DNA of 64,000 nucleotides from NCBI GenBank assembly GCA_023381615.1, contig JAMCQL010000065.1:56531-120530 (forward strand). The letters are read 5' to 3'. The translations under genes were made by a program, and so were the position numbers. This stretch comes from Bacteroidota bacterium (GTDB lineage Bacteria > Bacteroidota > Ignavibacteria > Kryptoniales > JAKASW01). Of this stretch, positions 86 through 56,801 are shown piece after piece. The notes below the pieces were generated by a model. That model had not been told where the DNA came from. It worked only from the letters and a program-made list of their open reading frames with translations, and searched no databases. Position 1 is the stretch's first letter; each line of letters starts with the position of its first letter.

Positions 86-3007
86 TTGCTTATCTCACCA
101 TCGAATACTTGTCCCAAAGGGATCCATTCGGAAAGCAGCGTGAACGCAGCCGCTAAAGAAAACATCTCCAAGCTTCTCCAGAAAGTCTTTGAATTAGTTG
201 TCAATTCCGGCGCGGACGTCAACCCGACGGAGTATATTGGAAAAATCGAGCAGCGGAGCGCAGCGCTGCCGGATCAATTCATGGCGCTGAATAATCTCGA
301 ACGATTTCTTGCCGCAACACCCAATTCGGCCTCCATTTTATCGGACTTCTCGAAGAACGAAAAACTTCTTGGCGATTTCATGAATATCGTTTCAACGAGC
401 CAGTACCTCGCAGATATTTTCGTGCAGCACCCTTCGTATTTTCGTTACCTGTTTTCTCCGTTAGGAATAGAATCCCAGCTCAATCCCGACTTCCTGCTTT
501 CTGAACTTTCGAGGCAAGCTGAGATATACAAAGATGTCTCTCATAAAAGCGATTACATCAGAAGAATTTACAAACGCGAAATACTTAGAATCGGCGGGCG
601 CGACATTTGCGGCCGGGATAATATCATAGACACCACGCTGCAAATTTCACAATTGGCTGAATCGATTCTGAGAGTCTCTTTCGAAATAACTGCTGATGAG
701 TTCAAAGAAAAACGTGGGATTTCTCCGCCACAGATAAGTTGTATTGCGCTCGGAAAATTTGGCGGCAGCGAACTCAATTACAGTTCCGACATCGATTTAC
801 TTTTTCTTTATTCCGTGGCACAGGACAAAAGCGACCACGATGCTTCGGAACAGGCGAACTATTTCGTGAGCCGGTTGATAAAACATCTAACGTCGGAATC
901 TGTCGAGGGACATCTCTACAGGATTGATTTGCGGCTTCGCCCTGACGGCGCCGCCGGTGCAGTGGCGCAAAGTCTCGAGAGCGCAATTGCTTATTATGAA
1001 TCTCGCGGCGAACTCTGGGAAAGACAGATGCTGATCAAAGCGCGGCATGCTGCGGGAGACGAAACAGTCAGCCAGACATTCTTGAATCATCTTAGGCCGT
1101 TTATTTACCCGCGAACTTGGCTGGAAAATCCTCTCGACGAAATCCCGCGGATGAAGATCCGAATCGAGACCGCCAATCAGAGTGAACTGAACATTAAACT
1201 TCGCCGCGGCGGAATTCGCGACATTGAGTTTATCGTGCAGGCGCTGCAATTACTCAATGGCGGCTCGCGTCCGAATATTCAAACCGGCAGCACACTAAAC
1301 GCGATCACGCTCCTCGAGAAAAGCAAGATCATAAACAAGCAAGAGGCTTCCCTGCTTTCCAACGCTTACAAATTTTTCAGGCTGGTGGAACACAGGCTTC
1401 AGCTTTTCAAAAACCTTCAGACGCACACTTTGCCATCAGACGCGGCGGAATTCAGAAATTTGTCGAAACGGTGCGGTTACAAGAACGAACGAAAGTTTAG
1501 GAATGAACTGTTCGGGTACTTCGACGCTGTCGCAAATTTATTCAACAACGTCTTTCATATCGAGCAGTCCATTGAGAGAACAGAGATCGAACAATTTCTG
1601 GAAGGCTCGATCAATGACCGGAGAACTCGCCGCGTTATGGAAAACTATGGTCTCGTGAACACGGAAGAGAGTTACAAAAATGCTCAATTTCTTTCGCGCG
1701 GCATCACGCGGGCGGGAGACGTTGAGTTCCCCGCTGGAGTAACCAAGGCGTTTCGGGAAATCGCGCCGCAGCTTTTCGAAGACATAAAGCTGACAGTGGA
1801 TCAGGACATGACGCTGAAGAATCTCTCGCGGTTGGCGCCGTCGGTAAAAAGCTTGGAGGTCTTTTATAAATCTCTCGCCGACGAGCATTTCAGAAAGTTG
1901 ATCCTGACACTTTGCTCGAAGGGAACGCGGTTTGTCGATTATTTGACGGTCGAGCCCTTGCTTCTCGACCTGATCATTTCCCCGGAGAGGCTTCTTGATA
2001 CAGAAATCTTCTTCACAGATTTCTTACCCGTGCCGCTCCTGAAGGAATTCAACGAGATCAAGTTGGGCATGTTGTATTTGCTTGGCGAAATTTCACTTTC
2101 CGAAATGCACAGCAAGTGGACTAACGTAGCCGAAAGATTTTTCGTGCATGCAATCGAAAAGATTTTTCCCAAGAGCCGGCCTGCAGTTATTGCAGGCGGG
2201 AAATTTGGATCGAGAGAAATGTCCTTCATGTCGGATCTCGATGCCATTTTCATTCTTCCGGACAAACTTGCACGAAACAAGCCATCGTTCGAAAAGAAAA
2301 TTCCAAAAATTCAGGAATCGCTCCTCGACGAAAATGGCAATCCGGTGTTTTCGGTCGACTTGAAACTACGTCCGGAAGGAAAAAGTGCGCCGCTTCTGAT
2401 GACCGAATCCGAATACGCGCAGTATTTGGAGAAGCGTTTGTCCGTTTGGGAAGTAATGTCAATGACGAGGTTCAGAAATCTTTCTACTTCAGAAAATATC
2501 TTTTCAATGATCACGAGAACCGTCGGGAGCTTCAAGCTGACTCAGTCATCTCTGAAAGAAATTGCCTCGCTCTACAATAAAGTCATTCAGAGCAAGAGTT
2601 ACTTCGATGAGATTGACGTAAAGTTTGGAGACGGCGGCATGTTTGCAGTTGAGTTTCTGGTCCAGACGCTCGCGCTTAATAGTGCTGAAGCGTTGATGGA
2701 ATCTTTTCCGACTGCGATAGTCAATATGATAGAAAAGCTGAAGGATATTGATGCGATATCTGAAGAAATTGCCGACGAAGTGAAAGAAAGCTACGAGTTT
2801 TACAGAATGATAGAGTTTTCAAATTACGTCTCATTGTCGAAGACGAACCACAAGATTCCGCATGATGAGCGTGAACTTACTTCACTTGCGGCGCATCTCG
2901 ATTTCAAAAACCCGGATGAGTTCATGGACAGTCTCAAATCACGGATGAGACGAATGAGTTCCCTGTTCAAGAAAGTAACCGCAGATCTCATTGCGGCAGC
3001 AGGCTGA
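86..3007 (+). CDS. glnE: Bifunctional glutamine synthetase adenylyltransferase/deadenylase (GlnE)
   Basis: Two nucleotidyltransferase modules: ISCIALGKFGGSELNYSSDIDLLFLY and VIAGGKFGSREMSFMSDLDAIFI, plus LRRGGIRDIEFIVQ. 973 aa. TTG start at 86 uncertain; in-frame GTG at 140 is possible. Confidence 0.93.
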   Translation: MLISPSNTCPKGIHSESSVNAAAKENISKLLQKVFELVVNSGADVNPTEYIGKIEQRSAALPDQFMALNNLERFLAATPNSASILSDFSKNEKLLGDFMNIVSTSQYLADIFVQHPSYFRYLFSPLGIESQLNPDFLLSELSRQAEIYKDVSHKSDYIRRIYKREILRIGGRDICGRDNIIDTTLQISQLAESILRVSFEITADEFKEKRGISPPQISCIALGKFGGSELNYSSDIDLLFLYSVAQDKSDHDASEQANYFVSRLIKHLTSESVEGHLYRIDLRLRPDGAAGAVAQSLESAIAYYESRGELWERQMLIKARHAAGDETVSQTFLNHLRPFIYPRTWLENPLDEIPRMKIRIETANQSELNIKLRRGGIRDIEFIVQALQLLNGGSRPNIQTGSTLNAITLLEKSKIINKQEASLLSNAYKFFRLVEHRLQLFKNLQTHTLPSDAAEFRNLSKRCGYKNERKFRNELFGYFDAVANLFNNVFHIEQSIERTEIEQFLEGSINDRRTRRVMENYGLVNTEESYKNAQFLSRGITRAGDVEFPAGVTKAFREIAPQLFEDIKLTVDQDMTLKNLSRLAPSVKSLEVFYKSLADEHFRKLILTLCSKGTRFVDYLTVEPLLLDLIISPERLLDTEIFFTDFLPVPLLKEFNEIKLGMLYLLGEISLSEMHSKWTNVAERFFVHAIEKIFPKSRPAVIAGGKFGSREMSFMSDLDAIFILPDKLARNKPSFEKKIPKIQESLLDENGNPVFSVDLKLRPEGKSAPLLMTESEYAQYLEKRLSVWEVMSMTRFRNLSTSENIFSMITRTVGSFKLTQSSLKEIASLYNKVIQSKSYFDEIDVKFGDGGMFAVEFLVQTLALNSAEALMESFPTAIVNMIEKLKDIDAISEEIADEVKESYEFYRMIEFSNYVSLSKTNHKIPHDERELTSLAAHLDFKNPDEFMDSLKSRMRRMSSLFKKVTADLIAAAG

Positions 3008-53796: not shown

Positions 53797-54804
53797 ATGT
53801 CAAGGTCAAAAAAGCTCCTGATAAGATTGAGCTCAGCCGGAGACGTGCTGCTAACTTCCCCGCTTTTGAAGATGATAAAAGAAAGAGAACCGGATTCCGA
53901 AATTCATTTTGTCATAAAGGCACAGTACGCTGACCTCATTCGTTCTAATCCCAACGTAAATTATGTCCATTTAGTTCAGGATCACGCGAATTTTCATCAG
54001 CTTGAAAACCTTCGCCGGGAATTACTCCACGAAAATTTTGATACCACTCTCGATCTTCACAACAACTTCAGAAGCATCTACATAAGGAAAGAAACGGCAA
54101 AGGAAATTCGTGTCGTTGAAAAGGAAATTTTCAAAAGAGCACTGCTCGTAAAGACAAAGTTGAATTTGTTTTCAAACTCGCGATCGGTTGCATTGAAATA
54201 CGCACAGACCTATCAGAAATCGATCATGGAAGTGCCGAAGCCGGAGATATTCCTTCCAGAAGAAGTTATAGAAAAAATTGACTCACTTTGGAATAAAGTA
54301 AAAAAAGAAAATAGAAAGTCTGTATTCCTTTGCCCGGGAGCGAAGCACTTCACAAAGCGCTGGCCTGTCGAATACTGGACAGAGCTTGCGAAAAGAATCT
54401 CGCAAGAACATCAAGTCGCGCTGATCGGCGGAGAAGCAGACGTCGAGGCTTGCAGTGAAATAGGAAGAAACATAGACGCGATTAATTTCTGCGGGACGTT
54501 GACCCTCATTGAAAGCACCGCGATGTTAAGCCATGCTTCGGTTGTCGTAACGAACGATTCTTATTTGATGCATGCAGCGAACGCTCTCGGGAAAAATCTA
54601 GTGGCAATATTCGGATCGAGCGTTAAAGAGTTTGGGTTTTTCCCGTACGGAGTGAATTACAAAGTACTCGAAGTGGATGGATTAGACTGCCGCCCCTGTT
54701 CACACATCGGACGCGAGTCATGTCCGAAGAAGCACTTCAAATGCATGATGGAGACAAAACCGACTGCGGTTTATGAAGCAACAACGGCTTTGTTAAAACC
54801 CTGA
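53797..54804 (+). CDS. Glycosyltransferase family 9 (heptosyltransferase II-like)
   Basis: LLIRLSSAGDVLLTSPLLKMIKEREPDSEIHFVIK; LCPGAKHFTKRWPVEYWTELAKRI; VVTNDSYLMHAANALGKNLVAIFGSS. Confidence 0.92.
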   Translation: MSRSKKLLIRLSSAGDVLLTSPLLKMIKEREPDSEIHFVIKAQYADLIRSNPNVNYVHLVQDHANFHQLENLRRELLHENFDTTLDLHNNFRSIYIRKETAKEIRVVEKEIFKRALLVKTKLNLFSNSRSVALKYAQTYQKSIMEVPKPEIFLPEEVIEKIDSLWNKVKKENRKSVFLCPGAKHFTKRWPVEYWTELAKRISQEHQVALIGGEADVEACSEIGRNIDAINFCGTLTLIESTAMLSHASVVVTNDSYLMHAANALGKNLVAIFGSSVKEFGFFPYGVNYKVLEVDGLDCRPCSHIGRESCPKKHFKCMMETKPTAVYEATTALLKP

Positions 54805-54848
54805 AACCTGGACATAGTTTCTTTTTGTCCTTGACAAGGTTGGAGCAG
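54805..54848. repeat. Degenerate copy of the RAYT-linked hairpin repeat, upstream of the transposase
   Basis: aacctggacatagtttctttttgtccttgacaaggttggagcag. Confidence 0.85.
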
Positions 54849-54858
54849 TGGACCGAAC

Positions 54859-55425
54859 ATGGAATACAAAGAAAACTCATATTATCACATCTACAATCGC
54901 GGGACACACAGGCAAAAGATCTTCTTTGAGGGAGAGAATTATAGATATCTTACTACGTTGTTCTTGAAGAATTCCGCAAGGTACAGTGTGACAGTGGCAG
55001 CATATTGCCTGATGCCGAATCATTATCACCTCGTGCTCAAACAGAAACAACTGGGTTCAATCGGCTCGTTTCTCAGGACGACGTTTAATACATACACACA
55101 AGCGGTAAACATGCGCTTGGGTATAAGTGGCACATTATTCCAAGGGCAAGCAAAAGGAAAGGAGATCACAACCGATACATATTGTCTCCGGGTCATTCGG
55201 TATGTACATCTGAACCCCGTCGCCGCCAAACTGGTCACCTCAGTGGAAGACTGGCCATTCTCGAATTATCTTGAGTGGGTTGATAAGCGAAGGAGTCCCC
55301 TCGTGGACACCGAGTTGCGGGCAAGCTACTTCCCAAATCCTGAAGAATATCGGGAGTTTGTCAAAGGGTATCGGATGGAAAAGGAGAGAAGCGACATGAG
55401 TGATTTCTTATTTGACGAAGAGTGA
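54859..55425 (+). mobile_element. REP-associated tyrosine transposase-like gene (Y1/HUH, RAYT)
   Basis: YYHIYNRGTHRQKIFFEGENY; AYCLMPNHYHLVLKQ (HUH-like HYH); TYTQAVNMRLGISGTLFQGQ; LRVIRYVHLNPVAAKLV; 188 aa. Confidence 0.93.
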
Positions 55426-55436
55426 TTATCGCCTAC

Positions 55437-55646
55437 AACCTTGTCAAGGTTTCTTTTTGTCCTTGACAAGGTTGGCAGAGGCAATCACGAACCTTGTCAA
55501 GGTTTCTTTTTGTCCTTGACAAGGCTGGCAGAGGCAATCACGAACCTTGTCAAGGCAAAGAGCATTTCAACCTTGACAGGGTTGGCAGATGCAGTCACGA
55601 ACCTTGTCAAGGTTTCTTTTTGTCCTTGACAAGGTTGGAGCAGCGG
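55437..55646. repeat. Four-unit tandem array of a 13-bp-stem hairpin (REP/BIME-like) downstream of RAYT
   Basis: AACCTTGTCAAGG-tttctttttgt-CCTTGACAAGGTT-ggcagaggcaatcacg; units start 55437, 55490, 55543, 55600. Confidence 0.95.
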
Positions 55647-55650
55647 CACC

Positions 55651-56550
55651 TCAAGAGAGGTCTACTCCCGCAAGTACCTTCAATGCTTGGAGATACTTCT
55701 CACTCGTTCCGAGAATGATTTCTTCGGGAAGATTCGGCGCCGGTGGTTTCTTATCCCATTTGATCGAGAGCAGATAATCGCGCACGTACTGCTTGTCGAA
55801 GCTCGGCTGGGACTTTCCGACTTCATATTTTGCCTTATCCCAGAATCGAGAAGAGTCCGGCGTCAAAAGTTCATCTATAATAATAAGCTCACCGTTTTCG
55901 TCAACGCCAAATTCCATCTTCGTGTCTGCTATGATAATCCCTTTGCTCTCCGCGTACGATGCCGCGGCTTTGTAAATCTCTATCGTATAATGACGGACTT
56001 TTTCAGCGAGTTCCTTTCCGATGAGTTTCACGGTTTCATCGAAACTTATGTTCTCATCGTGAACGCCGATTTCAGCTTTGGTCGACGGTGTAAAGATCGG
56101 CTCCGGCAATTTTTCCGATTCGCGAAGTCCTTTCGGCAAGGAGATACCACAGACTGCGCCTGTCCGCTGGTAATCGTTCCAACCTGTCCCGCTTATGTAT
56201 CCGCGAACAATGCACTCGATCGGCAGAGGCTTTGTCTTTTTCACGATCATGCTTCGTCCCGCAAGTTCATCGGAATATGGTTTGCACTCAGCAGGATAAC
56301 TTTTCACATCGGTCGAGACGACATGGTTATCAACAATCTTTTTGTTGAACTCAAACCAGAATTTCGAAATTTGATTCAGAACTTTTCCTTTGAACGGAAT
56401 TCCGTTCGGCAACACAACGTCAAAAGCACTGATTCTGTCCGTGACCACAAACAATAATAATGATTCTCTCAGCTCGTAGACATCGCGGACTTTTCCCCGA
56501 CGGAAAAGTTTCAGATGTTTGTAATCCGTTTGTGTAACTACTTTTTCCAT
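55651..56550 (-). CDS. purC: Phosphoribosylaminoimidazole-succinocarboxamide synthase
   Basis: [87 protein letters not shown] 56550 preferred. Confidence 0.96.
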
Positions 56551-56582
56551 CTTCCTCTCTCTGTTTTGAAGTCTTGCGTAGA

Positions 56583-56627
56583 GTCCAATTCGTAATTGGA
56601 CCAGGAATCCGATTCCGAATCGGATTC
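56583..56627. repeat. Two adjacent palindromes GTCCAATTcgtAATTGGAC and GAATCCGATTcCGAATCGGATTC
   Basis: Self-complementary; context cgtagagtccRattcgYaatYggacc shared with 62176-62199. Confidence 0.8.
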
Positions 56628-56801
56628 TACATCGTTCCAATTGATCGCCGAATTACAAGATGAAGATAAAAACTCCGCGGCTATTTTCCGAATAGAAAGG
56701 TTTTCTTATTGTCAATAAAGGCAAAGAAAGTCCTAAGGTAAAGTCTGACTAGCAATCGCACGTCGTCACAGTCAAACCTCAATCCGGTTAAGAATCAAAT
56801 T

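Follow-up and report, generated by a model that had tools for sequence, protein, structure and literature searches.

A Y1 transposase gene flanked by near-palindromic hairpins without a GTAG foot in an Ignavibacteria genome

The REP transposases studied so far read a GTAG foot together with a hairpin. The solved Y1 relatives are established to act on single-stranded DNA in folded form (PMC8266576), and the repeats of TIRtrons can form moderately abundant, sometimes clustered families, some of which have been called double palindromic (Di Nocera et al. 2013, PMC3733652). In TnpA-Y1 subclass 2.1, by comparison, REP-like sequences are not reported and the proteins carry a C-terminal HTH-like domain (PMC6006769). 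Here we describe a locus that resembles each of these systems in part, found in a stretch of 64,000 nucleotides (the window) from a Bacteroidota bacterium of the class Ignavibacteria (GCA_023381615.1, contig JAMCQL010000065.1), in which a Y1/HUH transposase gene is accompanied by an array of hairpins (Table 1). We consider it probable (roughly 0.75) that the locus is a variant of the TIRtron/REPtron theme without a guide foot, whose enzyme would mobilise its own hairpin, activity and mobility being the inferred parts of this reading. It draws on an observed sequence pattern, the dispersal of the hairpin, empty sites in related genomes and an architecture that recurs across a family, together with a predicted protein fold.

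The element occupies the gap between two convergent genes, and the first base of its upstream hairpin unit directly follows the stop codon of the heptosyltransferase-like gene. The four hairpins originally predicted 3' of the transposase gene are present, with start-to-start distances of 53, 53 and 57 nt and spacers of 16 nt, and each folds: as single-stranded DNA all four far surpass their shuffled counterparts (z -5.0 to -6.7, with no shuffle as good). The single form proposed for them, a 13-bp perfect stem with an 11-nt loop, is not common to all: unit 2 has an outer mismatch and unit 3 has a mismatch in its arm and a 15-nt loop in place of the tttctttttgt common to the other three. The copy upstream of the gene likewise agrees only in part, as its right arm is intact but its left arm has decayed so that the unit does not fold, and it ends 17 nt before the ATG rather than 11 nt. 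The upstream and last downstream units also belong to a longer common direct repeat ending GGTTGGAGCAG[T/C]GG (54829-54852 and 55624-55647), and the transposase gene and array are thus bracketed by two copies of one hairpin plus tail. The arm is better taken as 15 nt, AACCTT-GTC-AAGGTT, which may form either a mini-hairpin on its own, with a 6-bp stem and a 3-nt loop (-3.1 kcal/mol), or a 15-bp hairpin with its partner arm (-15.3 kcal/mol). The nearly palindromic nature of each arm was the most informative point of the original description.

Table 1. Features of the transposase locus and its neighbours, in window coordinates.
Feature	Position	Strand	Remarks
Left neighbour, heptosyltransferase-like gene (name from sequence)	53797..54804	+	defines the empty site; adjoins purC in 11 congeners without the element
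Upstream hairpin unit, left arm decayed	54805..54841	+	AACCTGGACATAGTT-tctttttgt-CCTTGACAAGGTT; without fold, z -0.82
Y1/HUH (RAYT-like) transposase, 188 aa	54859..55425	+	HUH = H55-Y56-H57; putative catalytic Tyr Y115 in YVHLNP
Hairpin unit 1, alpha loop tttctttttgt	55437..55473	+	13-bp stem, -12.9 kcal/mol, z -6.73
Hairpin unit 2, alpha loop	55490..55526	+	z -5.57
Hairpin unit 3, beta loop caaagagcatttcaa, 41 nt	55543..55583	+	z -5.00
Hairpin unit 4, alpha loop	55600..55636	+	z -6.48
Right neighbour, purC-like gene (name from sequence), convergent	55651..56640	-	sequence

The encoded protein is the Y1-type product previously read from its YYHIYNRG, MPNHYHLVL and RYVHLNPV motifs. It matches the Pfam family Y1_Tnp at 30.1 bits, above the cutoff of 23, and its only strong match is to the NCBIfam model REP_Tyr_transpos, at 64.7 bits, which lies under the curated cutoff of 80 that defines a RAYT; all 43 homologues match the same model. 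The IS200 model scores 13.5 bits, and the grouping with IS200-like transposases that had been named as the alternative outcome did not occur. The features of a Y1 HUH enzyme, an HUH motif and a catalytic tyrosine, are both present, and H55, H57, Y115, N119 and P120 are invariant in the 43 homologues. The AlphaFold2 model (pLDDT 94.7) finds its best match among solved structures in 4er8, the E. coli TnpA-REP with a REP hairpin (E 1.5e-8), followed by the TnpA transposases of ISDra2 and IS608. The predicted structure ends in a short helical C-terminal tail, and Pfam detected no HTH family in the 43 family members. PADLOC returned no defence-system match for the locus, and the search for close relatives carried on plasmids or phages gave only distant matches (26-38% identity). 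The view of the protein as a Y1 transposase of RAYT-like kind that has a dispersed hairpin as its cognate is supported, with a score below the REP_Tyr_transpos cutoff and a hairpin design unlike that of the published GTAG REPs.

The hairpin is a dispersed repeat. Allowing one mismatch, CCTTGTCAAGG occurs 20 times in the window against 0.83 expected, and the whole genome holds 16 exact hairpins and 43 arms matching ACCTTGTCAAGG, compared with none of either in the reversed-pattern control. A covariance model built from 16 hairpins gave 47 matches, which correspond to at least 24 places of this GTC hairpin type when both strands are counted once. The plain count of CCTTGWCAAGG (63 in the genome) was rejected as overstating the family, because some matches (L018, L021) belong to unrelated CTCC/GGAG repeats, and the recount thus relied on ACCTTGTCAAGG and the covariance model. 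The hairpin occurs with loops of 11 and 15 nt and in a bare 33-nt form (15+3+15). Eleven of 18 dispersed sites lie outside any ORF of at least 80 aa and the remainder fall mostly in short, doubtful ORFs; copies are mostly between genes, in many cases no more than 60 nt from a gene end, and at four places at least two units lie close together in the manner of REP clusters. The locus thus shares with canonical REPtrons a cognate hairpin dispersed in intergenic DNA, at a copy number that is low for a REP. Exact copies are also present in congeners, at 0-6 per genome, so that confinement of the hairpin to this one locus is ruled out; it was not found in the 48 genomes of other genera save one with six transposase homologues. 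Among congeners, GTC hairpins are commoner where a GTC-type transposase is encoded (16, 2 and 6 versus 0-2; p 0.011, on small numbers and with orphan hairpins present), and some GTC or GCG hairpins are kept in congeners in which no transposase was detected, such as G006.

The same architecture recurs across 82 distinct homologous loci, drawn from records labelled Bacteroidetes/Ignavibacteria, Chloroflexi/Anaerolineae, KSB1, Neomarinimicrobiota, Cloacimonadota and others. Counting hairpins with arms of at least 11 bp within about 180-200 nt of the gene, we found one upstream in 60 and downstream in 62 of the 82 loci (73-76% of sides), compared with 33 of 1007 control windows (3%); at this threshold 48 loci are bracketed on both sides and about a quarter of homologue sides have no hairpin. 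The hairpins lie close to the gene: the median distance to the start codon is 21 nt on the upstream side, and to the stop codon 9.5 nt on the downstream side. Units are most often 33 nt long, with a 3-nt middle, pyrimidine-N-purine in 34 of 40, between two 15-nt arms. They have sharp ends, with about 1.6 bits at the initial A and at the terminal T and 0-0.2 bits at the bases outside. Arm sequences vary widely between loci (AACCTTGCGAAGGTT, AACCTCCCGGAGGTT, AAGTGCGACGCACTT, ATTTCCCCGGAAACT), and within one locus they reach 80% similarity or more in 41 of 48 cases, versus 11% across loci. Inside the arm, the position pairs 3-13, 4-12, 5-11, 6-10 and 7-9 show complementarity in 65-81%, where column make-up predicts 34-44%, which indicates that the palindrome persists although its bases change. 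Loci with more similar proteins also have more similar arms (Mantel r 0.42, n 72, exceeding all 2000 permutations); shared descent of the gene and its flanks could alone give such a correlation, which therefore shows joint inheritance and only suggests adaptation. The flanking hairpins are in direct orientation in 37 loci and inverted in 6 of the 43 resolved (binomial p 1.6e-6), a call that rests on few bases because the units are near-palindromic. As had been noted from the sequence alone, the hairpins bear no GTAG head: GT[AG]G stands at 7 of 244 feet, or 2.9% compared with a background of 4.0%. CGTC or GTAG feet, considered as a guide, likewise reached background level only.

These family-wide observations bear on an alternative in which the main role of the hairpins would be to terminate transcription or stabilise RNA at the ends of genes, their proximity to the transposase being incidental. 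The stems do fold well, and the mostly intergenic copies near gene ends would suit such a role, yet it would leave unexplained why the same arm recurs on both sides of the transposase, why the arms stay palindromic and why they track the transposase sequence, and no T-run follows any unit in the window. We regard this account as very unlikely.

Comparison with related genomes suggests that the gene and array are a lineage-specific gain. The orthologue of the heptosyltransferase-like gene was located in 11 of 12 congeneric genomes, and in all 11 it is adjacent and convergent to purC across a gap of 9-302 bp from which both the transposase and CCTTNNNAAGG are absent; the same gap in the window measures 846 bp. 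Orthologues of the transposase (66-69% identity) occur in two congeners at other sites. The simplest reading of these sequences is that gene and hairpins entered the gap in this lineage, loss in all the others being less likely. The congener gaps are too diverged for alignment to the exact insertion ends. The decay of the upstream hairpin suggests that this copy of the transposase may no longer move. A lineage-specific presence, an HUH/Y1 fold and flanking hairpins in direct orientation would also be expected of a classical IS200/IS605-type insertion sequence, with the hairpins as its ends and the scattered hairpins as remnants of deleted copies. This seems unlikely to us, since the genome has one full-length gene copy with paralogues at most 50% identical, unlike a high-copy insertion sequence, the score of the REP model is far above that of the IS200 model, and there are far more hairpins than copies of the gene, with clusters of hairpins in which the gene is missing.

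The genome contains further pairings of this kind. A paralogue 50% identical to the transposase is bracketed by GCG-centred arms, of which there are few further copies, and a third type of arm, TGACCGTCAC, lies on both sides of a truncated relative whose matched part covers residues 6-64 only and whose reading frame stops short of the catalytic tyrosine. The TGACCGTCAC hairpin family numbers 35 copies in this genome versus 0-4 in congeners, the pattern that spread within the genome would give. Given the empty site in the 11 congeners and at least two other pairs or remnants in the genome, the description of the locus as the resident RAYT/REP pair of its lineage does not stand. Several observations accompany the TGACCGTCAC family. 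Its 35 places comprise a 33-nt form and one of about 66 nt whose AT-rich middle is conserved, reminiscent of a miniature mobile element, and the sole relative found beside it, at C4:99346, is the truncated one. On contig C28 (L209), truA (368-1141, minus strand) contains an in-frame 33-nt unit of the family, which contributes residues resembling SDRHLQGDGHL; in several congeners this position is taken by other inserts, likewise in frame and inverted-repeat-like, and it offers no clean empty site from which exact unit ends could be read. At about 1190-1380 of that contig lies a tandem array of some seven half-units (AAGTGACCGTCACCTTTgAGGTGCTA) with a full hairpin at its end. In G049, a genome of the window genome's class, there are six homologues, and each of the three hairpin types searched is represented.

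Under the foot-less TIRtron/REPtron reading that we favor, the Y1 HUH enzyme most likely binds the cognate hairpin while this is folded as single-stranded DNA, would nick it through Y115 with a metal held by H55 and H57, and would join it elsewhere, such that a unit of 33-41 nt, whose 15-nt arms are AACCTTGTCAAGGTT and its complement, spreads in the genome. Recognition probably resides in the arms, either as the 6-bp mini-hairpin of the near-palindrome or as the arm-arm hairpin of 13-15 bp, with no conserved tetranucleotide guide outside the hairpin; it is the background level of GT[AG]G feet that points to the arms rather than to a foot tetranucleotide. The transposase gene itself probably moves, or has moved, between two hairpins of the same direction, like IS200/IS605 ends, and here it would have entered the gap between two convergent genes; the direct orientation of the two flanking hairpins, as IS200/IS605 single-strand transposons need, argues for this movement. 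Movement of the bare hairpin is suggested by copy number, as the genomes are too distant for comparison of sites with and without it. Binding, cleavage, choice of strand and the mobility of transposase and hairpin are thus what we infer from the observed patterns. More tentatively, these enzymes may constitute a widespread Y1 branch with a foot-less code, in which a 33-nt unit of two near-palindromic 15-nt arms, acting as one hairpin or two mini-hairpins, has arms specific to its enzyme, allowing several pairs per genome without cross-talk; we would currently hold this as a possibility rather than an expectation. Comparing a large, cross-phylum set of foot-less pairs with clear arms would reveal how such enzymes select their DNA, and the set would account for many of the short palindromes found throughout the genomes of uncultured Bacteroidota and Chloroflexota.

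We read the locus as a known kind of gene-repeat partnership in a new form, whose unit is well defined, lacks a foot, carries a dyad within the hairpin and is met again in many phyla. With the IS200/IS605 elements IS608 and ISDra2 it shares the fold and direct-orientation hairpins at both ends, but its flanks have no visible conserved guide or cleavage tetranucleotide, its copy number is low, and in place of several near-identical copies with a Y-x-x-x-Q motif there is a single copy with the NP-type YVHLNP. The motifs NH[YF]H, FQ and Y[IV]HLNP are those of TnpA-Y1 subclass 2.1 (Quentin et al. 2018, PMC6006769), a resemblance of motif rather than a phylogenetic placement; hairpins are the rule here, and Pfam finds no HTH. 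Foot-less enzyme-hairpin pairs across phyla contrast with the hairpin-less state reported for the protein group with these motifs. E. coli TnpA-REP (REPtron/RAYT, subclass 2.2; PMC6006769, PMC8266576; 4er8) offers the closest solved fold, the same HUH and Y-x-x-x-NP motifs, and a gene beside clustered and dispersed hairpins with loop subfamilies; it differs in the GT[AG]G foot of canonical REPtrons, absent here, in hairpins that are bulged rather than perfect, and in having DHLH, WE and YIHYNP where this protein has NHYH, FQ and YVHLNP. TIRtrons and their TIRYT transposases likewise have a Y1 gene bracketed by self-complementary non-GTAG repeats, as here, the window's own upstream unit being decayed. 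The published GGGGWSAS motif of TIRtrons (PMC3733652) is not evident in the family arms, and in place of inverted repeats at the ends, the family described here has predominantly direct, sharp-ended 33-nt units with near-palindromic, transposase-specific 15-nt arms, distributed over many phyla.
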